From Tamilnaduibacter salinus (lineage in GTDB: Bacteria; Pseudomonadota; Gammaproteobacteria; Pseudomonadales; Oleiphilaceae), in assembly GCF_003096655.1 (NCBI RefSeq), contig NZ_QEKQ01000002.1:248001-312000 (forward strand): a stretch of DNA of 64,000 nt, given 5' to 3'. Below the pieces are notes generated by a model. That model searched no databases. It saw only the letters and a list, made by a program, of their open reading frames with translations, and had not been told where the DNA came from. Of the stretch, positions 1 to 20,403 are shown piece after piece; the stretch's first letter is position 1; each line of letters starts with the position of its first letter. Both the position numbers and the translations under genes were made by a program.

Positions 1-133
1 CGTGCACGGTCTGACTGAGGTCGAGCGTTTTCAGCGTGTCGATGAAGCGTTTTGCGGATACGTCCAGTTCACCGATCTCGCCATAGATATAGATCTCGTT
101 CTTGTCGAGAATGGCTTTGATATTTCGAGCCAT
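1..133 (-). CDS. ClpP-like phage prohead protease, N-terminal fragment
   Basis: Only the first 44 codons are present; the gene runs off the left edge. The translation starts MARNIKAILDKNEIYIYGEI and continues with a segment containing DVSAKRFIDTLKTLD. The pattern 'short N-terminus, IYIYGEIG, then SA-x-x-F-x-D-x-L' is typical of the ClpP/S49-like head-maturation proteases of HK97-type phages, in which a serine protease processes the capsid shell during assembly. The catalytic Ser and His would lie further left and cannot be checked. A good ribosome site (AAAGGAG) ends 8-9 bases before the ATG. It follows the 148-aa gene by 85 bases on the same strand. It is the only morphogenesis gene visible and the main reason to call the element phage-derived. 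A host ClpP or SppA relative is unlikely given the short N-terminus and the context. Confidence 0.72.
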   Translation of the reverse strand, partial: MARNIKAILDKNEIYIYGEIGELDVSAKRFIDTLKTLDLSQTVH

Positions 134-218
134 GGCTGGTTCTCCTTTCGGGACTTTCTGTGAGGTTAGTGAGCCCTTCCGGGGTCTGAAATACCCGGCA
201 TTTCGTCGCAATGCTGGG

Positions 219-665
219 TCACCTGAAGCCGTCGCCGTTGATGATTTCCAGGGCACGACGCCACCCAATCGCCAGCGCCGGATCACCCCCGCCGTCGATG
301 CAGACGTTCCGCAATTTGATGAGCGCAATGGTGGCCTGGTGGTCTTTGACGTTCGGCACGGCATCGGCCATCGAGTCGGCAATAATGCCGGCGGCTTTGG
401 TCTTGCCGACGTGCTTCAGCAGGTGGCCGGCTGCCTCTTTGATGAGCTGATCCCGCTGGCGGGTCCGCCACACATAGCAGGGCTTCTCCCGGGCCTGACC
501 GGGGCCAACGGCAAGCCCCAGAGCCTCGTCGAGCGTCCGGGCCGTGCCGGATCGATAGGCCTTCAGTCCCGACAGGTACCAGGACTTCAGAGGCGCGGGC
601 GGTTCTTCGTCTCGTTCCAGGTGGTCGATGAGCTGGAGGAATGCGTCTGGTGGTGTGATGTTCAT
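219..665 (-). CDS. Hypothetical phage/satellite protein, 148 aa
   Basis: I do not recognise this family. The product is soluble, has no signal peptide or membrane segment, and is moderately charged. Its first third holds SWYLSGLKAYRSG and a proline-rich stretch (EEPPAPLK); the middle (REKPCYVWRTRQRDQLIKEA) is rich in basic residues. The ATG is preceded by GGGGA at about 7 bases. It is the first gene left of the repeat-rich non-coding segment and lies directly before the prohead protease gene, so it probably belongs to the late or packaging module, for example as a small head or packaging accessory protein. That role is inference from position only. An overlapping frame at 283-708 lacks a comparable ribosome site and looks like a shadow. 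Confidence 0.6.
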   Translation of the reverse strand: MNITPPDAFLQLIDHLERDEEPPAPLKSWYLSGLKAYRSGTARTLDEALGLAVGPGQAREKPCYVWRTRQRDQLIKEAAGHLLKHVGKTKAAGIIADSMADAVPNVKDHQATIALIKLRNVCIDGGGDPALAIGWRRALEIINGDGFR

Positions 666-785
666 AGCGCATTCCCCAAAACCCGGGTAGCCATGAAAGG
701 CACCACAAAGTTTTTGCAGTCAGACCCGCGTTGGGTGTGCGCCCTGATATTCCGTATGGAAGAACGGGCCGGTGGCCCTTGGTAA

Positions 786-814
786 ATTATAAAGGTGTAC
801 ACATAGTGACTACT
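786..814 (-). promoter_or_regulatory. Candidate leftward promoter for the late genes
   Basis: On the minus strand a perfect TATAAT (786-791) lies about 120 bases before the 148-aa gene. The position of a -35 box (about 809-814) is occupied by the end of repeat copy 1 (798-813) and has a poor match (AGTAGT). A good -10 with a weak -35 overlapped by a repeat would suit an activator-dependent promoter, possibly bound by the element's AlpA or replication protein. This is inference from spacing; no start site is known. Confidence 0.4.
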
Positions 815-930
815 GAAAGGCCTCAAAATGGCCTGACAGATACACATAGTGACTACATTAGGGGGGCCGCCAACCCTTTCAGCCCGTTTGGTAGTCGATA
901 TATGACTACATTGATACACATAGCGACTAC
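798..930 (+). repeat. Iteron-like direct repeats, family A
   Basis: TACACATAGTGACTAC occurs exactly at 798-813 and 841-856 and with one change (AGCG for AGTG) at 915-930. Between copies 2 and 3, GTAGTC-GATATAT-GACTAC (891-909) is an inverted pair of the same half-site. The four rightward GACTAC ends fall at 813, 856, 909 and 930, giving spacings of 43, 53 and 21 bases, close to 4, 5 and 2 helical turns, so all would face the same side of the DNA. Such phasing is expected for cooperative protein binding. Confidence 0.7.
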
Positions 931-971
931 CGTTTTTGTTTTTGGCGGGTAGGCGCTGGCGTTGAGGTTTC

Positions 972-1011
972 ACGGTGAAGTCACCGTTACAACCGTTACA
1001 GATACCGTTAC
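972..1011 (+). repeat. Short direct repeats, family B, with inverted partner
   Basis: ACCGTTAC occurs at 983-990, 992-999 and 1004-1011. The first copy overlaps the right arm of a perfect 7-bp inverted repeat, ACGGTGA (972-978) and TCACCGT (981-987), separated by 2 bases. The cluster lies within 15-55 bases of the end of the winged-helix gene. It is different in sequence from family A and could bind a second protein. Confidence 0.55.
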
Positions 1012-1025
1012 CAGTGCTCATGACA

Positions 1026-1427
1026 TCAGCCCTCGTAATCTTTGAATCGGTTGCTCGGGGTATTGGTTGGGCCCACATCGAGCTTCCCCCGGCACTCGTC
1101 GATTGCTTCCCAGGTCAGCGCGTAGAGCGTGCATCGGTGCCGACCGCCTTCGCGGGTCTCCTGAATCAGGCCCACTTCCAGAAGGCCCTTCAGGGCCTTG
1201 CTGAGCGTGCCGGGGGATTTCCAGCCGCGTTCCTTCATCACTGACCAGGCCGCGCAAAGATCGCCGTTGTTCTTGCCGTTGAATTGCCCGCCTATATCCA
1301 CCAGAAGCTTCACTTCCCAGCCTCCGAGCGAGCGATAGGCCGGACTCCCCAGAACGTCCTTGGGGAGCCCGAGAAACGGCCGTTTGCTCCGGCGTCCCTT
1401 CTGCCGGGCTCTCCGATCCTTTGCCAT
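1026..1427 (-). CDS. Winged-helix protein, putative replication initiator of the element
   Basis: The 133-aa product has a basic N-terminus (MAKDRRARQKGRRSKRPF), then a helical region with SPAYRSLGGWEVKLLVDIGGQ, a segment that looks like the recognition part of a winged helix (GTLSKALKGLLEVGLIQETR), and a C-terminal HRCTLYALTWEAIDECRGKL. From memory, similar short proteins with the 'YALTW-x-x-IDECRGKLD' ending recur in small prophages and satellites of Proteobacteria and are often placed as replication or regulatory proteins; I know of no biochemical proof. GGGGTGA precedes the ATG. It starts 3 bases after the stop of the 116-aa gene and lies immediately upstream of the repeat-rich segment, which supports a DNA-binding role at that site. 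Confidence 0.65.
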   Translation of the reverse strand: MAKDRRARQKGRRSKRPFLGLPKDVLGSPAYRSLGGWEVKLLVDIGGQFNGKNNGDLCAAWSVMKERGWKSPGTLSKALKGLLEVGLIQETREGGRHRCTLYALTWEAIDECRGKLDVGPTNTPSNRFKDYEG

Positions 1428-1430
1428 GGA

Positions 1431-1781
1431 TCACCCCGCCAGCGATGCCCGGAGCAGCGATAGCGCCAGCGGCCGTGAACTCTCATCGATGAAGTAGATG
1501 CCCGGGCGGCACACCTGGCCGTCCGCGTTGGTAAAGCGACGCCGGCAACACAAGATGTTGAGGCCGCGCTGGCGGAGGTCCGCGATGTAGGCGGGCCCGT
1601 TGCTGACCGGGCCGGCCCTGTCGATTTGCTCGCGGGTCTGCGGACCGTTCAGCAGGGCCTTCAATATCCGGGCGTGACGGCTTGCCAGCGGTCGGATCTG
1701 AGGGGTATTCTTCTTGGCGGTAGTGCTGGTTTGAGCCCCTGTTTGGTTGGCGCCTTCGGGGGCTTTCTCTTGATCTATCAT
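1431..1781 (-). CDS. Small winged-helix-like protein, 116 aa
   Basis: The N-terminal 25-30 residues are polar and Thr/Gln-rich. The rest contains ASRHARILKALLNGPQTREQ followed by a second helix and RQRGLNILCCRRRF, which reads as a helix-turn-helix with a short wing and a terminal GIYFID strand. That suggests a DNA-binding protein, but I cannot assign a named family. A strong GGGAGG ribosome site precedes the ATG. The start overlaps the 72-aa gene's stop by 4 bases (1778-1781), so translation is probably coupled. Position between AlpA and the replication-like protein points to a regulatory or replication accessory role. Confidence 0.6.
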   Translation of the reverse strand: MIDQEKAPEGANQTGAQTSTTAKKNTPQIRPLASRHARILKALLNGPQTREQIDRAGPVSNGPAYIADLRQRGLNILCCRRRFTNADGQVCRPGIYFIDESSRPLALSLLRASLAG

Positions 1782-1996
1782 CGCTTCCCTCCCCGCATGT
1801 CGATGTAGTGGAACAGCTCGTTCACAGCGACGGCCTTACACCCGGAGATCCGTTCAATCTGCAATTCCCCGAGAGTCACGGCGTCCTGGACTTCTTGAGA
1901 TGGGATGTTGAGCGTTCTGGGAACCTCGCTGAGGGCGAGGTACTGGCGTCGGTTCCGGAAGAACCAGCCAGGTCTGACCGGGCGCTGGGCTTTCAT
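1778..1996 (-). CDS. Small hypothetical protein, 72 aa
   Basis: This is a small basic protein without membrane segments. The part RRQYLALSEVPRTLNIPSQE followed by a short turn and VTLGELQIERI resembles the MerR/excisionase-like fold in which a helix is followed by a region that reads 'GxLxxxRI', so a DNA-binding accessory role is possible. It overlaps alpA by 4 bases (ATGA, 1993-1996) and the next gene by 4 bases, and must be part of the same transcript. No family was recognised with confidence. Confidence 0.55.
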   Translation of the reverse strand: MKAQRPVRPGWFFRNRRQYLALSEVPRTLNIPSQEVQDAVTLGELQIERISGCKAVAVNELFHYIDMRGGKR

Positions 1997-2187
1997 GCAG
2001 CACCCCCGTTTCGGTTCTCCCAGGCAATGATGTCCGAGAGTTTCCAGCGGGTGCAGTTATCTCCAAGCTTGATTGGGGCGGGGTACTTCCCTTCTCGAAC
2101 CCAGCGCCACGGCGTGATTCTTGAGACGCCGTATCGAGCGGCAAGATTCTTGTCGGAAAGATACTTCTCGTCTGATAGTTGAGTCAT
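1993..2187 (-). CDS. alpA: AlpA-family excisionase/transcriptional activator
   Basis: The 64-aa product has the AlpA/Xis-type winged-helix pattern: DKNLAARYGVSRITPWRWVR (helix-turn-helix), then GKYPAPIKLG and a C-terminal WKLSDIIAWENR. AlpA proteins of P4-like satellites and phage islands activate integrase or early transcription and assist excision. An upstream GTG at 2217 gives 10 more residues. I prefer the ATG at 2187 because GAGG lies 7 bases before it and family members begin close to the helix-turn-helix. The gene follows a 121-base gap after the 209-aa gene, so it may have its own promoter in 2188-2308, and it heads a run of overlapping genes. Confidence 0.82.
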   Translation of the reverse strand: MTQLSDEKYLSDKNLAARYGVSRITPWRWVREGKYPAPIKLGDNCTRWKLSDIIAWENRNGGAA

Positions 2188-2308
2188 GGTGTGGCCTCGC
2201 GTGTTTTGCTGTGTCACGAGCCACGTTATTCAGGAGGGTTAGGGAATGCTTTCTTAGAAGATGCTGAAACGGCAAAGAAACCGTTTTTTCAAGAAGATGC
2301 AGGGGCGC

Positions 2309-2938
2309 TTACTCGGAATGCCGTAATGTGCCGTGAATATCGCCGCAGTCAGGCAAGCGCGAACCCGTTTTAATCTGAATCCGGCCAGCATCGGTTATTA
2401 AGGTAGTGATAGGAAAGGTTTTTAAGTATTCGTAGTACCATTCTCGGAGCTTTTCCATCGAAACCGCGTACTCACCTGCGACGTGACTCAGTGCTTCCAT
2501 AACCGGCACAGGGTTCTCTCTTTCCCTCAGACTCAAGACTTGTCGGATTGCCGGCGGCTTGATGTTGGCTTCTCGCTTCAAGTCATGAATTCGGCGTCCT
2601 TTGTGCGGGGCAGCGAATATTTCGTTCCAGTTTCGCACCTCGAACGACTTAATCTTGCTAGATGCATCTTGCACGGCATCGACACACCAGGGAGGCATAG
2701 GCAAACCCTGTTCACCGCACATAGAGAGCGCTTCAAACAGAGCCTTTGAATCACCTTCCTGCCAGCGCTTCTCAAGCGGAGGCAGCCAGTTTTTCCACAC
2801 TGACCATTGATGGGCTGGCGAGTCATCGCAGACCCCTGAGCGAACACATTCCTCACCTATTTCGATTGCTTCTTCCAGCGACCAGCTTTCTAGGCTTTCC
2901 ATAGCCTCTTGCAAGTAGCCGTATGGTTTGCCACTCAT
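2309..2938 (-). CDS. Unknown element protein, 209 aa, coupled to the integrase gene
   Basis: The product is a soluble helical protein with no signal peptide. The middle part, HQWSVWKNWLPPLEKRWQEG, followed by KALFEALSMCGEQGLPMPPW, resembles a domain I have seen in many hypothetical proteins of proteobacterial phages and integrative elements, where a 'GDS-x-ALL-x-A-x-x-LCA-x-x-x-LPLP-x-W' motif precedes a 'W-x-x-x-F-x-x-P-x-x-KG' motif (here NWNEIFAAPHKGRR). Its function is unknown. The C-terminal half (AIRQVLSLRERENPVPVMEA) could bind DNA or protein. The gene overlaps the integrase stop by 4 bases (ATGA), so the two are translated together. Base composition is clearly more A+T-rich than in the integrase gene or the chromosome to the right, suggesting a different origin. 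Confidence 0.6.
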   Translation of the reverse strand: MSGKPYGYLQEAMESLESWSLEEAIEIGEECVRSGVCDDSPAHQWSVWKNWLPPLEKRWQEGDSKALFEALSMCGEQGLPMPPWCVDAVQDASSKIKSFEVRNWNEIFAAPHKGRRIHDLKREANIKPPAIRQVLSLRERENPVPVMEALSHVAGEYAVSMEKLREWYYEYLKTFPITTLITDAGRIQIKTGSRLPDCGDIHGTLRHSE

Positions 2939-4233
2939 GGGCTGCCCCCACCAATTGGCACGATTTTATCAGTGTCCGCCAGCGGCTGCCTTTCGTAGCA
3001 AAACCGCTCCCAATCCCCCATCATCAGGCGGCGCTTCTCAATCAGCTCTGAGCGAGCGTAGGCGGCCCGTGTCGCGTCGTCGTTGACGTGGGCCAGGGCC
3101 AGTTCGGAAACCTCGTCTGCATAGGCTGTGTTCTCCCGTGCCCAGTCCTTGAAGGTGGACCGGAAACCGTGGACTGTATATGGGGCGTCCATGCGCTTCA
3201 TCACGGCTGACAGGAAGTTGTTCGATGGAATCTGGCCTTTCGGGCCCGGGAACACCGGCTCGGTGCCCTCCCCTGGCCCGATGGCTTCGAGAATCTCAAC
3301 CGCCCGACTGCACAGGGGAACACGATGGACCTTCTCTGACTTCATCAGCTCGGCCGGTATGGTCCAGATTCGGGCAACCAGGTCCACGTCTCCCCATACG
3401 ATCCCCCGCTTACCAATTCGCTTGTCACCGATGACTTCGTTCGTCCTTGCAGCGGTCAGAATCAGAAACTCCAGGGCCTTCGCTGCCGTCCCCTTCCGTG
3501 CGGAAAGTTGCTGCATGAACTCTGACAACTGACTGAGAGGCATTGCCTTGTGATGCCCCTTCTTCTTGATCTTCTCCGGGGATGGGTAAACCTCATCGAG
3601 GTAGCCTTGCCAACGGGCGGGATTGTCATTGGAGCGGTATCCGTGGATTGCGCACCAGCCCAGGATGTTCTCGAGCCGGGCCCGGACTCGGTTGGCCGTT
3701 TCGGTCTTGCTTTCCCATATCGGATCAAGAACCGCCTTGATGTGGGCCAGCTCGATTTCTCTGACCGGAGTCGCACCGATGCGCGGGACCGCGTAGGTCT
3801 TCAGGCTGTTCCGCCACTGTTGGGCCTGGCGGGGATTTCGGAACTCCTTCGCCTTCATGTCGATGTACTGCTCCATGGCCTGTTCAAAGCTCATGGTGCT
3901 GAGCTGAGCGGCGACAAGAGCACGCTTGGCGGCCCGCTTCTCTTCTACTGGATCCGCACCCGCCCGAATCTGCTCTTTCAACTCCCTCGCTTTATCTCTC
4001 GCCTGAGCCAAAGACACTTCGGGGAAAGGACCCAGGCCAATATCGGGCCGCCGCTTGCCGACCTTGGTCCGGAGAATCCATTGCCTCGCGCCGCTGGGCG
4101 TCACCTTCAGCAGCAGGCCAGAGACTCCGCCCACGGGGTGGCGGGACTCCATAGGCTCCCCCGTTTCAGGATTAACCCGACAGGTGAGGCGTTTCACCTC
4201 AATCGCGGAAAGCTCTTTGGCAACTCTCGGCAT
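2935..4233 (-). CDS. int: P4-type tyrosine recombinase/integrase
   Basis: The 432-aa product has the P4-integrase layout: an N-terminal DUF4102-like arm-binding domain (GLLLKVTPSGARQWILR, residues about 40-55), a SAM-like core-binding domain (about 110-205), and a C-terminal catalytic domain. Catalytic residues are visible: Arg in LTAARTNEV (about 263), His-x-x-Arg in VHGFRSTFKDW (about 355-358), a second His in LALAHVNDD (about 382) and the nucleophile Tyr in RAAYARSELIEKRR (about 392). It catalyses site-specific integration and excision. A GTG at 4257 would add eight residues; I prefer the ATG at 4233 because homologues begin MPR-x-A-x-EL. The gene reads away from yccA and lies at the element's edge, as expected. 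All catalytic residues are intact, so mobility is plausible. Confidence 0.92.
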   Translation of the reverse strand: MPRVAKELSAIEVKRLTCRVNPETGEPMESRHPVGGVSGLLLKVTPSGARQWILRTKVGKRRPDIGLGPFPEVSLAQARDKARELKEQIRAGADPVEEKRAAKRALVAAQLSTMSFEQAMEQYIDMKAKEFRNPRQAQQWRNSLKTYAVPRIGATPVREIELAHIKAVLDPIWESKTETANRVRARLENILGWCAIHGYRSNDNPARWQGYLDEVYPSPEKIKKKGHHKAMPLSQLSEFMQQLSARKGTAAKALEFLILTAARTNEVIGDKRIGKRGIVWGDVDLVARIWTIPAELMKSEKVHRVPLCSRAVEILEAIGPGEGTEPVFPGPKGQIPSNNFLSAVMKRMDAPYTVHGFRSTFKDWARENTAYADEVSELALAHVNDDATRAAYARSELIEKRRLMMGDWERFCYERQPLADTDKIVPIGGGSP

Positions 4234-4632
4234 CCTTTGGCCCACATCCTGGCACACATAAAATGTTGTTATTCGATGCTACAAGGTGCTATCGTAGGTT
4301 ACAAGCGTTTCAGGTATGTTCCTGTTTTTGGATGGATAACGCTGGCACGAAGGTTGGAAAATCAGGTGGTTATGGTGCTTTTTGACGGACTGGCCCACCG
4401 CCATTTCTTTATATCGTCCTCTTTTCGCCCCTGCCTCTTGAACGGCTGAGCGCTTCAGGTGTTCACCCTCTGATGATAAAGAGCCTTATTTTTTATTCCG
4501 TCGGGAACGCAATCCCATTGATTCCTGTCGAAACGACATTATGATTGAGAGTATCAGGGAATCGCTGAAAGCGGCTTCCCCAATTGATTTCCGGGATTTC
4601 CTGAAAGACTGACACCAGTATTGGAGACAACG
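4234..4632. other. Element-chromosome junction and yccA upstream region
   Basis: About 400 bases without a convincing gene, more A+T-rich than the chromosome to the right. TACAAG is repeated at 4280-4285 and 4300-4305, 20 bases apart, just upstream of the integrase start, and might be integrase arm sites or an operator. I looked for a tRNA or the 3' end of one, the usual target of P4-type integrases, and found none. The yccA promoter must lie here, but I see no strong sigma-70 boxes. The attachment core cannot be placed from one end of the element. Confidence 0.4.
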
Positions 4633-9594: not shown

Positions 9595-10182
9595 TTATTT
9601 GTAGTAGGCGTTTTCCCGGTAACTGTGGTCGGTGACGTCCTGAACGCTGGTCAGCTCCGGAATCCGGTCCGTCAGGGTGCTCTCGACCCCCTGCTTCAGC
9701 GTCAGGCTGACCGCACTGCAGCCCTGACACCCCCCGCCGAAGCGAAGGACGGCGACGGATTCGTCAACAACGTCCACAAGAGACACTTCGCCGCCATGGG
9801 AGGCCAGGCTCGGATTGATCTCCGAGGCCAGGATATAGTTGATCCGATCAGGCAGCGGTGCGTCGTCATCAATATTGGGAACCTTGGCGTTCGGCGCCTT
9901 GATCGTCAGCTGCCCGCCCATCCGGTCTTCGGAAAAATCAACGTAGGCCTCCTCCAGGAACGGCACGGAACTGTGATCGAGGAACAGCGTGAATTTCCCC
10001 AGATCAATCTGTTCGTCTGTCGGCACGACTTCATTGGGCGGGCAATAGGCCAGACAGGTTTCCGCGTGCTTGGTCCCGGGCTGCGTTACGAATATACGGA
10101 CTCCCATGCCCTCGACATCCTGCTTGCCGATCAATTGAGCCAGATAATCCCGGGCGGAATCCGTTACGGTCACGTTTGCCAT
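9595..10182 (-). CDS. nfuA: Fe-S biogenesis carrier NfuA
   Basis: The 195-aa product has an N-terminal degenerate A-type domain (residues 1-95; [20 protein letters not shown]) and a C-terminal Nfu domain with the cluster-binding C-x-x-C in [13 protein letters not shown] (Cys152, Cys155). NfuA carries [4Fe-4S] clusters to apo-enzymes such as aconitase-type dehydratases and is important under oxidative stress. ATG at 10182 is preferred to a TTG one codon earlier; AGGGTGA precedes it. It is divergent from metH across 179 bases and is followed by a terminator, so it is probably monocistronic. LeuC and CysI in this window need such clusters. Confidence 0.95.
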
Positions 10183-10313
10183 CAATTCACCCTGTTTCGA
10201 AGTTTCCCCTAGTTTAAGGCTTCCGCTCGGCGCATAAAAGACCCAGTGTTTTACTCGGATTTATCAGGGCCATGGTCAGGGCCAAGGATAGCAACGACGG
10301 AATGGTCCAATTT

Positions 10314-10322
10314 TGCTATCAT
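10314..10322 (+). promoter_or_regulatory. Candidate extended -10 promoter of metH
   Basis: TG-C-TATCAT (TG at 10314-10315, hexamer 10317-10322) is a good extended -10 element and lies 40 bases before the metH start. A -35 box is not convincing. I looked for a cobalamin riboswitch in 10183-10361 and found none of its conserved boxes. Confidence 0.4.
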
Positions 10323-10361
10323 TCCGCGCCCTGATACCAGCACAACCAACCCGGACATCTT

Positions 10362-13300
10362 ATGACGAACCGGCAACAGCGGATCGAACAACTCCATAAA
10401 GCCCTGCGTGAGCGCATTGTCATTCTGGATGGCGGCATGGGCACCATGATCCAGAACCTCCAGCTGAGTGAGGACGCGTTCCGCGGCGAGCGGTTCAGGG
10501 ACTGTGACCAGGAAGTCCAGGGCAACAATGATCTGTTGAACATCACGCAGCCGGAGAAGATGCAGGCCATCCACGCGGATTATCTGGAAGCCGGCGCGGA
10601 CATTATTGAAACGAACACGTTCAACAGCACCCGGCTGTCCCAGTCCGACTACGCCATGGAGTCGCTGGCCTATGAGCTGAACGTCGAAGGCGCCCGGATT
10701 GCCCGGGAGGTGGTGGATGAGTTCACCGCAAGAACACCGGAGAAACCGCGTTTCGTCACAGGCGCCATCGGTCCGACGTCCCGCACAGCCTCCATATCGC
10801 CGGATGTGAACAACCCGGGGTATCGAAATGTGGATTTCCAGACCCTCTACGAGAACTATTACGAGGCGACCCAGGGTCTGGTTGAGGGTGGCGTTGACCT
10901 GCTGCTCATCGAGACCATCTTCGATACGCTGAACGCCAAGGCCGCCATCTTCGCAATCCAGCAGTACTTTGAAGACAGCGGCGAAACACTGCCGATTATG
11001 ATTTCCGGCACGATCACTGATGCATCCGGCCGCACTCTGTCGGGGCAGACGACCGAAGCGTTCTGGAACTCAGTGAGGCATGCCAATCCTCTGACCGTGG
11101 GTCTGAACTGCGCCCTCGGCGCCGATGCGCTGCGCCCCCACGTCGAGGAGCTCTCCAACTGCGCAACCAGTTACGTCAGCGCCCACCCCAACGCGGGACT
11201 GCCCAATGAGATGGGCGAGTACGACCAGACGCCGGAGGAAATGGCCGAAATCATTGAAGGCTTTGCCCGGGATGGTTTCCTGAACATTATCGGCGGTTGC
11301 TGTGGCTCGACACCGGAGCACATCCGCGCCATTGCCGAAGCGGTCAGCCGTCACCCGCGCCGGGTACCGCCAGAGATTCCCCCTGCCCTGCGCCTGTCCG
11401 GCCTTGAGCCCTTTACGGCCGACGGCTCATCGCTGTTCATCAATATCGGCGAACGAACCAACGTGACCGGTTCCAAACGGTTCCTGCGTCTGATTCGCGA
11501 GGAACAGTACGAGGAAGCGCTGAGCGTTGCGCTGGACCAGGTTGAGAACGGCGCCCAGATCATCGACGTCAACATGGACGAAGGGATGCTCGAATCCCGG
11601 GACGTGATGGTGACGTTCCTCAACCTCATTGCGTCTGAACCCGACATCTCCCGCGTTCCCATCATGATCGACTCGTCAAAGTGGGAAGTGATCGAAGCCG
11701 GGCTGCGCTGTGTCCAGGGCAAGAGCGTTGTGAACTCCATCAGTCTGAAAGAAGGCGAAGAGGACTTCCTCGCCAAAGCCGAATTGTGCCGTCGCTATGG
11801 CGCAACCGTCGTGGTGATGGCATTCGACGAAAGCGGCCAGGCCGACAACTATGAGCGGATGACCGCTGTCTGCAAACGCTCATACGACCTGCTGATGGGG
11901 ATCGGCTTCCCGCCCGAGGACATCATTTTCGACCCGAATATTCTTGTGATCGGCACCGGTATGGCCGAGCACGACAACAACGCCGTGGACTTCATCGAAA
12001 CCGTTCGCTGGATCCGCCAGAACCTGCCTTACGCGTCGGTATCAGGCGGTGTCAGCAACGTGTCATTCTCGTTCCGTGGCAATAACGTCGTGCGCGAGGC
12101 GATCCACTCGGTCTTCCTGTACCACGCCATTAAGGCCGGTCTCAGTATGGGCATCGTTAACCCGGGCCAGCTGGTTGTTTACGATGAGATCGACCCGGCA
12201 TTGAAAGAACTGGTTGAGGACGTCGTGCTCAACCGCCGTGAAGACGCCACCGAGCGTCTGCTTGAAGCCGCCGACCAGTACCGGGGGCAGGCGGGCCAGC
12301 AGAAGGCCGAAGACCTGGCCTGGCGGGAGTGGCCGGTCGAGAAACGCCTTGAGCATGCGCTCGTCAAGGGCATCACCAGCTACATCATCGACGACACCGA
12401 GGAGTGCCGCCAACGCGCCGAGCATCCGATCGAGGTGATCGAAGGCCCGCTGATGGACGGCATGAACGTCGTCGGTGACCTGTTCGGTGACGGCAAGATG
12501 TTCCTGCCCCAGGTGGTGAAAAGCGCCCGTGTGATGAAGCAGGCCGTCGGCCACCTGATTCCCTACATCGAGGCCGAGAAATCCGCCGGTCAGCAGGCCA
12601 AGGGCAAGATCCTGATGGCCACTGTCAAAGGCGATGTTCACGACATTGGCAAGAACATCGTGGCCGTGGTACTGCAGTGCAACAACTACGAGGTCATCGA
12701 TCTGGGCGTGATGGTTCCCTGCGAGAAGATTCTCGAAACCGCACGTGAGCAACAGGTCGACATCATTGGGCTGAGCGGGCTGATCACGCCATCCCTGGAT
12801 GAGATGGTCCATGTAGCAAAAGAGATGCAACGCCAGGACTATCAGGTGCCGCTGATGATCGGCGGCGCGACGACGTCCAAAGCCCACACGGCGGTCAAGA
12901 TTGAGCCGCAGTACGACAACGATCTGGCACTCTACGTTTCAGACGCCTCACGTTGCGTGAACGTGGCCTCGAAGCTACTAAGCCAAAAGGCGAAGGAGGC
13001 GTTCGTCGCCCAGACCCGCGAGGAGTATGACACCATCCGCGAACGCCGGAAGAAGAAAGGCAGCCGGATGAAGCTCATTGGACTGGACGAGGCCCGTCAG
13101 CGTGACACGGGCATCGACATGGCCTCTTACGAGCCGGTCCGGCCCTCGTTTACAGGGCTGAAGGTCTTCGATGCGTACGATCTCGAGACCCTGGTCGACT
13201 ACATCGACTGGTCGCCGTTCTTCATCTCCTGGGACATGTCCGGAAAGTATCCCGCCATTTTCGACGACCCCAAACGCGGTGAAGCGGCGCGGACGCTATT

Positions 13301-14057
13301 CGACGACGCGCAGCACATTCTTCGCCGGATCATCGACGAAAAGCGCCTGACGGCACGGGCCGTGATCGGGTTCTGGCCGGCAAACCGCCGGGGGGACGAC
13401 ATTGTCGTCTATACCGACGAATCCCGTTCCGAGGAACTGACGACCCTGCACCACCTTCGTCAGCAGGATGAAAAGTCCCCCGGCAAGCCCATGCTGGCAC
13501 TGTCCGATTACCTGCTGCCTGAGGACGATGAACGCTGTGACTACATTGGCGGGTTTGCCGTCACAGCCGGGATTGGCGCGGATGAGTTGACGGAGGAATA
13601 CAAGGCCGTCAATGATGACTACAGCGCCATCATGGTTCAGGCACTGGCGGACCGCCTCGCGGAAGCGTTCGCCGAGCACATGCATGAACGTGTGCGTCGC
13701 GAATTCTGGGGCTATGCGCCTGCCGAAGCGCTCGACAATGACGCACTGATCAAGGAGAAATACCGGGGCATCCGGCCAGCGCCTGGCTATCCGGCCTGCC
13801 CGGATCACACCGAGAAGAGCACGCTCTTCGAGTTGCTCGATGCAACGGACAACGCCGGGATGACGCTGACCGAGCATTACGCCATGTCGCCCTCTGCGGC
13901 GGTTTCCGGCTGGTACTTTGCCCACCCGGAGGCCCGTTACTTCTCGGTGGGACGCATCGGCCGAGATCAAGTGGTGGATTACGCAGAAAGAACCGGCATG
14001 AGCGTCGCGGAGGTGGAGCGCTGGCTATCGCCCAGCCTCGGTTACGAGCCGGAATGA
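10362..14057 (+). CDS. metH: Cobalamin-dependent methionine synthase
   Basis: The 1231-aa product is full length. It transfers the methyl group of methyltetrahydrofolate to homocysteine through cobalamin. Domains in order: homocysteine-binding barrel with the zinc cysteines in [11 protein letters not shown] (about 310-312), pterin-binding domain (about 355-620; [16 protein letters not shown]), helical cap (about 650-740), cobalamin domain with the D-x-H-x-x-G motif in [15 protein letters not shown] (about 757-763), and the AdoMet reactivation domain with RPAPGYPAC near 1136. ATG at 10362 is the only start consistent with the conserved N-terminus ([18 protein letters not shown]). It is followed after 16 bases by a small membrane-protein gene. 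No metE is visible. The organism needs cobalamin for this enzyme. Confidence 0.97.
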
Positions 14058-19725: not shown

Positions 19726-20403
19726 TCAGTATCCAGCCTCTGACGACGAGTCCGGCGGCATGATCCAGTCATCCATGGCCTGCCCGGCCCGACGGTTCGC
19801 CGGCAATGCGGCAAGCCCGGTCGACGACAGACGGACATCAAACACGGCACCATCCGCCATCGGCATAAAGGTGGCGTTGCCATACAGCGCGTCCAAAAAC
19901 GGCAGTCCGTGTTCCCGATCCAGGTGCCAGCTATCGAACCAGCTGCCTCCGCTGAGACCGTATACCGTCCGCTTGGCGCTGCGAGCCTGATCAAGTCGGG
20001 CATACCGACCGCTGATACGCTCCAGGCGGTATAGCGGCCCGATGCCCAGCCAGGAGAGCGGTTTTTTCAAATGCAGGATCCGCGCATCCACCTGCCACTG
20101 GTCACCACGTACCATGAAGGTGCTGGCGTCCTGCTCTGGCTGCTCAACCCGAACCCGCCAGGTCTGTGGGCCACTTTTCGTCATGCCGATGGTGGCGACC
20201 GTTTCGAGGTCAGAAAGGGTCTGATAGTGGCGCAGATCCAATGCCAGAAGTGCCGTATAGCCCCCTACGAGGATGATCAACAGGCCGACGCTGCCTCTGA
20301 ACCATGGCAACAGGATGTTCGGGCGGAGAAACAACCAGAGACCGGGCAGGACGAGCAGTCCGCCAAGAACGCCCAATACGATCATGCCTGCCTGGTCGAG
20401 CAT
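19726..20403 (-). CDS. Conserved hypothetical membrane protein, 225 aa
   Basis: The product has two N-terminal membrane spans (VLGVLGGLLVLPGLWLFLRP and GLLIILVGGYTALLALDL) and a soluble periplasmic C-terminal domain with QWQVDARILHLKKPLSWLGI and ISGRYARLDQARSAKRTVYG. From memory, Pseudomonas relatives carry the label 'multidrug transporter', but the topology is not that of a transporter and I would not use that name. It lies 40 bases after fimL on the same strand, so it may share its transcript and relate to pilus or envelope function. Confidence 0.7.
   Translation of the reverse strand: MLDQAGMIVLGVLGGLLVLPGLWLFLRPNILLPWFRGSVGLLIILVGGYTALLALDLRHYQTLSDLETVATIGMTKSGPQTWRVRVEQPEQDASTFMVRGDQWQVDARILHLKKPLSWLGIGPLYRLERISGRYARLDQARSAKRTVYGLSGGSWFDSWHLDREHGLPFLDALYGNATFMPMADGAVFDVRLSSTGLAALPANRRAGQAMDDWIMPPDSSSEAGY

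Follow-up and report, generated by a model that had tools for sequence, protein, structure and literature searches.

A tRNA-Ser island of Tamilnaduibacter salinus with its own TerS, capsid, and tape-measure genes, a probable satellite of a lambda-like siphophage

Tamilnaduibacter salinus carries an 11.1-kb island that, judged from its sequence and that of its relatives, is a real, conserved satellite, and we consider it fairly probable that this integrated element hijacks a lambda-like siphophage by swapping in its own versions of three particle components. The genes for these components, a Nu1-type TerS, a fusion of a ClpP-type prohead protease with the major capsid protein (MCP), and a tape measure protein (TMP), are the only particle genes that we recognised in it. 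The island's borders, gene content, and conservation, the presence or absence and mosaicism of its TMP cassette, the cos-like block that it shares with a phage, and the relatives of all three genes in that phage were read directly from sequence.

Borders, gene content, and relatives of the island

The window analyzed here is a stretch of 64,000 nucleotides (G000:C2:248001-312000) in a 3.4-Mb genome; in the L002 coordinates of Table 1, position 20000 is the base preceding window position 1. Once the contig was extended leftwards, the island could be traced from the 3' end of a tRNA-Ser gene to a 17-bp copy of that end, its right border preceding yccA, so that the 4.2-kb segment considered in the original prediction is its right-hand portion and amounts to less than half of it. 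An empty integration site was not found, and relatives differ in their tRNA/yccA arrangement. All genes named in that prediction lie on one strand, as it stated, and the gene order that it described (int, alpA, probable replication genes, and then a head gene of the island's own) holds across the full element: int, p209, alpA, p72, p116, p133, the repeats, p148, the protease/MCP fusion, TMP, p75, the cos-like block, and TerS.

Table 1. Features of the island from left to right, in window positions unless prefixed.
Feature	Position	Strand	Evidence or remark
tRNA-Ser	L002:13182-13272		left of window
attL	L002:13259-13275 = G000:C2:241259-241275		tRNA-Ser(TGA) 3' end; left of window
Two genes at tRNA end	L002:13404-14332	+	opposite strand
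TerS, Nu1-type, 165 aa	L002:14388-14885	-	PF07471, phrog_57
cos-like block	L002:14889-14943
p75 "HPLG" protein	L002:14973-15200	-	small, helical
TMP, 920 aa	L002:15433-18195	-	PF10145, phrog_4211
Prohead protease/MCP fusion, ClpP-type, 623 aa	G000:C2:246262-248133 (1-133 in window, start at 133)	-	PF00574 and PF25209 (5e-52), phrog_133
p148	219-665	-	all-helical, AlphaFold pLDDT 83; immediately upstream of capsid fusion
Repeat segment	798-1011	.	3 x TACACATAGYGACTAC (at 798, 841, 915) and 3 x ACCGTTAC (within 983-1011)
p133, 133 aa	1026-1427	-	adjoins repeats; no Pfam or PHROG match
p116, small protein	1431-1781	-	weak winged-helix match, PF14090 below cut-off
p72, small conserved satellite protein	1778-1996	-	follows alpA
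AlpA-type regulator/excisionase, 74 aa	1993-2217	-	PF05930, phrog_66
p209, int-overlapping gene	2309-2938	-	iolg-like position; 4-nt ATGA overlap with int read in sequence
Tyrosine integrase, 440 aa	2935-4257	-	PF22022, PF13356, phrog_1 (Arm-DNA-bind_3, Phage_int_M)
attR, copy of tRNA-Ser(TGA) 3' end (CTGGCCCACCGCCATTT)	4390-4406	.	17-bp perfect direct repeat; sister elements with att repeats at same tRNA

Genes were identified by a Pfam scan of all called island genes and a PHROGs search with the ten main ones. The anticipated integrase and AlpA were recognised by both, the latter barely over the Pfam cut-off (21.5 bits) and at 3e-10 to the PHROG excisionase/regulator family; the integrase is 70-72% identical to those of satellites L020, L171, and G129. 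Both small genes expected beside alpA are in place, and one of them, p72, is present in 15 of the 163 genomes of the taxonomic family and lies in satellite islands wherever inspected. The 209-aa gene, proposed together with the dual repeat families as the mark of an undescribed subgroup, does not define one: it sits where PICMIs have iolg, and the gene found at this place in the present family varies from member to member. It has a 56% relative in L020.

Of the predicted winged-helix protein, the 133-aa gene is present and the fold assignment found no match in Pfam or PHROGs. Relatives of p133 occur in G129 (68%), G150 (63%), L020 (73%), and G101 (61%); several other satellites have kept the gene, two of them next to repeats, and p133 is probably a replication initiator or regulator. 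The two repeat families beside it are real, each with 0.00 copies expected by chance in the window, and the TACACATAGYGACTAC set reappears in genome G129, where its 74/43-bp spacing is unchanged, and, as a variant, in G150. The segment is probably an origin or operator array. On the far side of the repeats, p148 has relatives of 39-51% identity in L020, L090, L091, L170, L171, G091, and G129; a PDB fold search with it returned no match, and one with p75 no usable match.

Neither a CI-type repressor nor a lysis gene was found in the 4.2 kb or across the island, in agreement with the original prediction, and the ClpP-like N-terminus noted there belongs to the full protease/MCP fusion. The scans (Pfam for all genes, PHROGs for the ten main ones) gave no match in the island to portal, TerL, head-tail connector, HNH, or further tail genes, to a primase (DUF3987/DUF5906), or to the P4 core genes (alpha primase, sid, psu, and delta), and a PADLOC scan of its unknown genes found nothing. 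A search for portal, TerL, and head-tail connector genes having found none, the island is by its gene content not a cf-PICI in the defined sense, and that part of the prediction falls. The extension to attL disclosed neither a complete prophage nor a truncation after the protease, but it did disclose one tail gene, the TMP, of a kind that the proposed cf-PICI model excluded. The anatomy is consistent with a phage satellite in general.

Relatives were sought in the 163 genomes with the TMP, the capsid fusion, p72, and the cos-like block as queries. About 20 islands, including the window's own, share the layout of the control end, and eight of them carry a TMP. Most are bounded by repeats of tRNA or tmRNA 3' ends (14-48 nt) lying ~6.5-16 kb apart, the borders of G019 and G091 being weak (14-15 nt). 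We sorted them into four types by their structural genes, many of which were named solely from BLAST matches to a restricted choice of queries, so that diverged ones may have been missed: (i) capsid fusion and TerS with no TMP (G129, G019, and G091); (ii) a TMP of the same family with no capsid fusion (G137, G075, G034, G048, and G060) or a TMP of a different type (G150 and G074b, the latter also with an S78 head protease); (iii) TerS with TerL (G147, which has a 333-aa capsid protein, and G093, with G029, G035b, G034b, and G052 placed here by gene layout only); and (iv) no recognised structural gene (G115 and G101). The window's island combines types i and ii and is not unique in doing so, for capsid, TMP, and HPLG protein follow one another in this order in the IMG/VR contigs L171 and L020 as well, with 66-67% capsid identity, and L171 has both att sites. 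The sister element G091, in Marinobacter sp. ELB17, supports the earlier placement of the island among compact satellites of marine gammaproteobacteria; among the open-licence papers searched, none dealt with Marinobacter together with phage satellites.

That the island is a decayed prophage, stripped of most of its structural, lysis, and regulatory genes, is very improbable. The island does hold homologues of three phage structural genes, but its open reading frames are intact, there is purifying selection, the att repeats are perfect, independent elements keep the same gene order at 45-72% identity, and the ~20 islands of similar size are built on one int-alpA backbone.

Several further observations were made among the relatives. 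L171 (1-10720) is a complete satellite that has a capsid fusion, a TMP, and the cos-like block; no TerS could be recognised in it, and it therefore presumably relies on that of its helper. In satellite L073 (G074:C3), an S78 prohead protease is encoded together with a 686-aa TMP of a different kind (9697-11757 and 12010-12522), by its sequence an independent joining of head and TMP genes. A partial locus in another family of the same order (L173, from G330) holds a DUF927-like gene with relatives of p148 (30%) and of the capsid fusion (45%); satellites of the head type may thus reach beyond the family. A tandemly repeated ORF pattern lies immediately upstream of the TMP in satellite G060 (L022, ~12000-13650). 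The 337-aa gene preceding the TMP in G137-type satellites was considered as a capsid gene, which was not supported. A gene for a DUF4124 protein (137-189 aa) stands next to the TMP, on its upstream side, in phages G134, G062, and L175-L193. It recurs in satellites, on the opposite strand in G048, G137, G075, and G034 and on the plus strand in G129 and L091; its product may possibly act in superinfection exclusion.

Packaging, capsid, and a candidate helper phage

Phage IMGVR_UViG_2902000069_000001 has relatives of the island's TerS (62%), protease/MCP fusion (36%), and TMP (63%), and likely represents the helper type. We had entertained an origin of the head and TMP genes from two phages, an idea that arose from prophages G033 and G095, in which the capsid fusion accompanies an unrelated TMP; it was dropped because this one phage has relatives of the whole trio. 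A GpA-type terminase is absent from the host genome, in which, therefore, no helper prophage with that terminase is resident.

Directly upstream of terS in this phage lies a non-coding block, the sole copy in its 42.7 kb, that matches the equivalent place in satellite L091 at 80.6% over 72 bp (E 1e-13) and the window's island over 56 bp. The block is also found in satellites with no recognisable terS (L171, G115, and G101) and near terS in prophage G005; from its place and conservation we infer that it functions as a cos site. The satellite of G129 has a second copy, 77-81% identical, at its far end (G129:C11:707625-707690). Taking the roles of the TerS domains to be those of lambda Nu1, the satellite proteins match the phage at 63-74% in the C-terminal domain, much as close satellites match one another (63-71%), whereas in the N-terminal DNA-binding part they match it at 48-56% and one another, among close satellites, at 64-80%. 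By these identities the N-terminal part separates phage from satellites and the C-terminal domain does not.

In the scenario that we favour, infection by the helper, or its induction, would switch on AlpA, and Int, AlpA, and the int-overlapping protein would excise the island, whose replication p133 and the repeats would start or regulate. The satellite TerS would then dock on the helper's large terminase and steer it to the island's cos-like block, a satellite head would be built from the protease/capsid fusion upon the helper's portal, and the satellite TMP would take the place of the helper's own in tails otherwise made of helper proteins, the helper's tail-assembly chaperone included. We infer these steps, from excision and the assembly of capsids to the redirection by TerS, the role of the cos-like block, and the entry of the TMP into particles, by analogy and from evolution. 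Helper head parts would also be needed, since no portal, TerL, connectors, or HNH gene was found. Several findings count against this scenario, among them the lack of a GpA-type terminase in the host genome: the capsid fusion of the candidate helper is only 36% identical, and, unlike in PLEs, no chaperone gene was found, the island holding no homologue of the gene in the chaperone position of local phages, although a very diverged one is possible.

The capsid fusion and TMP might instead be mainly interference factors that poison or resize the helper's heads and tails and form no particle of the satellite's own. The lack of a portal, connector, or chaperone would suit such a role, as would the precedent of SaPIbov5 Ccm, a capsid-protein homologue that redirects helper capsids (PMC8569155). 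The fusion, however, is full length with its Ser and His positions conserved, and the TMPs of PLEs occur inside PLE virions (PMC12987554); we regard interference as improbable next to the hijacking of a siphophage.

The tape-measure gene

Contigs L020 and L091 are 89.9% identical in nucleotides over 2.4 kb, up to the stop codon of the capsid gene; the TMP gene follows in L020 and is absent from L091, and similarity resumes right past the TMP stop. The TMP is thus a clean, swappable cassette, and the difference is compatible with gain or loss. All satellite TMP frames are intact, with dN/dS of ~0.08-0.18 at a dS near saturation. Their products span 909-938 aa and those of most phages 911-933 aa, so tail length would stay the same, at an estimated ~0.14 um for 920 aa at 1.5 A per residue, and what a satellite gains by encoding its own TMP cannot be read from length.

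We examined mosaicism in 28 TMPs (8 from satellites and 20 from phages), of which 25 entered the permutation test after removal of near-copies. Residues 61-420 fall into two alleles, with 78% identity inside an allele and 25% across the two, and satellite or phage status is irrelevant here (p ~0.25); satellite L171 and prophage G062 are 95-100% identical across this region. Residues 541-920 behave otherwise, for here the allele is irrelevant (55.9 versus 55.9%), and identity is higher within than between the satellite and phage classes (59.3 versus 51.7%, p=0.0005 with labels permuted within allele). In the tree of this region all eight satellites stand on one side of a branch of moderate support (66/85), an arrangement obtained in 0 of 500 label shuffles. 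The two regions, on this evidence, have separate histories, a result that leaves shared ancestry in and does not imply function. At least three captures of the TMP, as suggested by full-length trees, were given up in favour of module exchange because region-wise trees trace that signal to residues 61-420.

The TMP could also be passive cargo or recombination bait from phages with no role in satellite particles, which we hold to be unlikely. The exchange of residues 61-420 with phages, as between L171 and G062, and the lack of a TMP in close relatives such as L091 would accord with it. Against it, the reading frame and length are maintained at a dN/dS of ~0.1, the C-terminal half has a separate history in satellites, and sister satellites G074b and G150 carry TMPs of unrelated types.

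The C-terminus of the lambda TMP sits in the tail tip (PMC10721106). Within the hijacking scenario, we tentatively suggest a satellite TMP of two parts: residues 61-420, traded repeatedly with phages in one or the other allelic form, might track whatever this region targets or fits, and residues 541-920, the end expected at the tail tip, might be satellite specific and decide the entry of the TMP into satellite tails.

Known satellites and significance

Chimeric tails have been proven for the PLEs of Vibrio cholerae, which put their own TMP into them, and deletion of PLE tmp lowers transduction by 96-99.9% (Mathur, Boyd et al., Nature 2026, PMC12987554); the principle behind the island is therefore not new. 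The island, too, encodes its own TMP, and most of its tail proteins would be made by the helper. PLEs, however, carry a tail-assembly chaperone, whereas the island has no recognised chaperone or baseplate-hub gene and has instead a Nu1 TerS and its own protease/MCP fusion. Its probable helper type is a lambda-like siphophage and not the contractile-tailed ICP1, and its TMP is a mosaic partly common to phages, whereas the PLE11 TMP is 20% identical to that of ICP1.

With cf-PICIs (PMC10690885) the island shares int, alpA, its own capsid protein, protease, and TerS, and putative tmp genes have been reported in some of them (PMC12987554, Extended Data Fig. 10); the missing portal, TerL, connectors, and HNH set it apart from cf-PICIs as PMC10690885 summarises them. 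It resembles the PICMIs of Vibrionaceae in its marine hosts and in its control end of int, an int-overlapping gene joined by ATGA, and alpA, all three required for excision in PICMIs (PMC10803314), but it has no primase, occupies a tRNA-Ser site instead of their usual fis, and carries structural genes. SaPIbov5-type cos PICIs (PMC8569155) likewise have a satellite-encoded capsid-protein homologue, and cos-type packaging, which is probable for the island; the island differs in its full protease/MCP fusion, its TMP, and its proteobacterial host.

Satellite-encoded tape measures were first demonstrated in 2026, and in cholera PLEs only (PMC12987554). The present family is a natural dissection of such elements, with islands that hold few or no structural genes, TerS and capsid, TMP alone, or all three. 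Because one pair of satellites differs precisely by the TMP cassette, and the TMP divides into a region held in common with phages and another that sets satellites apart from them, selection of the TMP is testable with chimeric TMPs. The two-part reading, if true, would supply the selection step that is missing from the PLE picture, and the hosts of this family, in which that selection could be tested, are cultivable, non-pathogenic marine bacteria.
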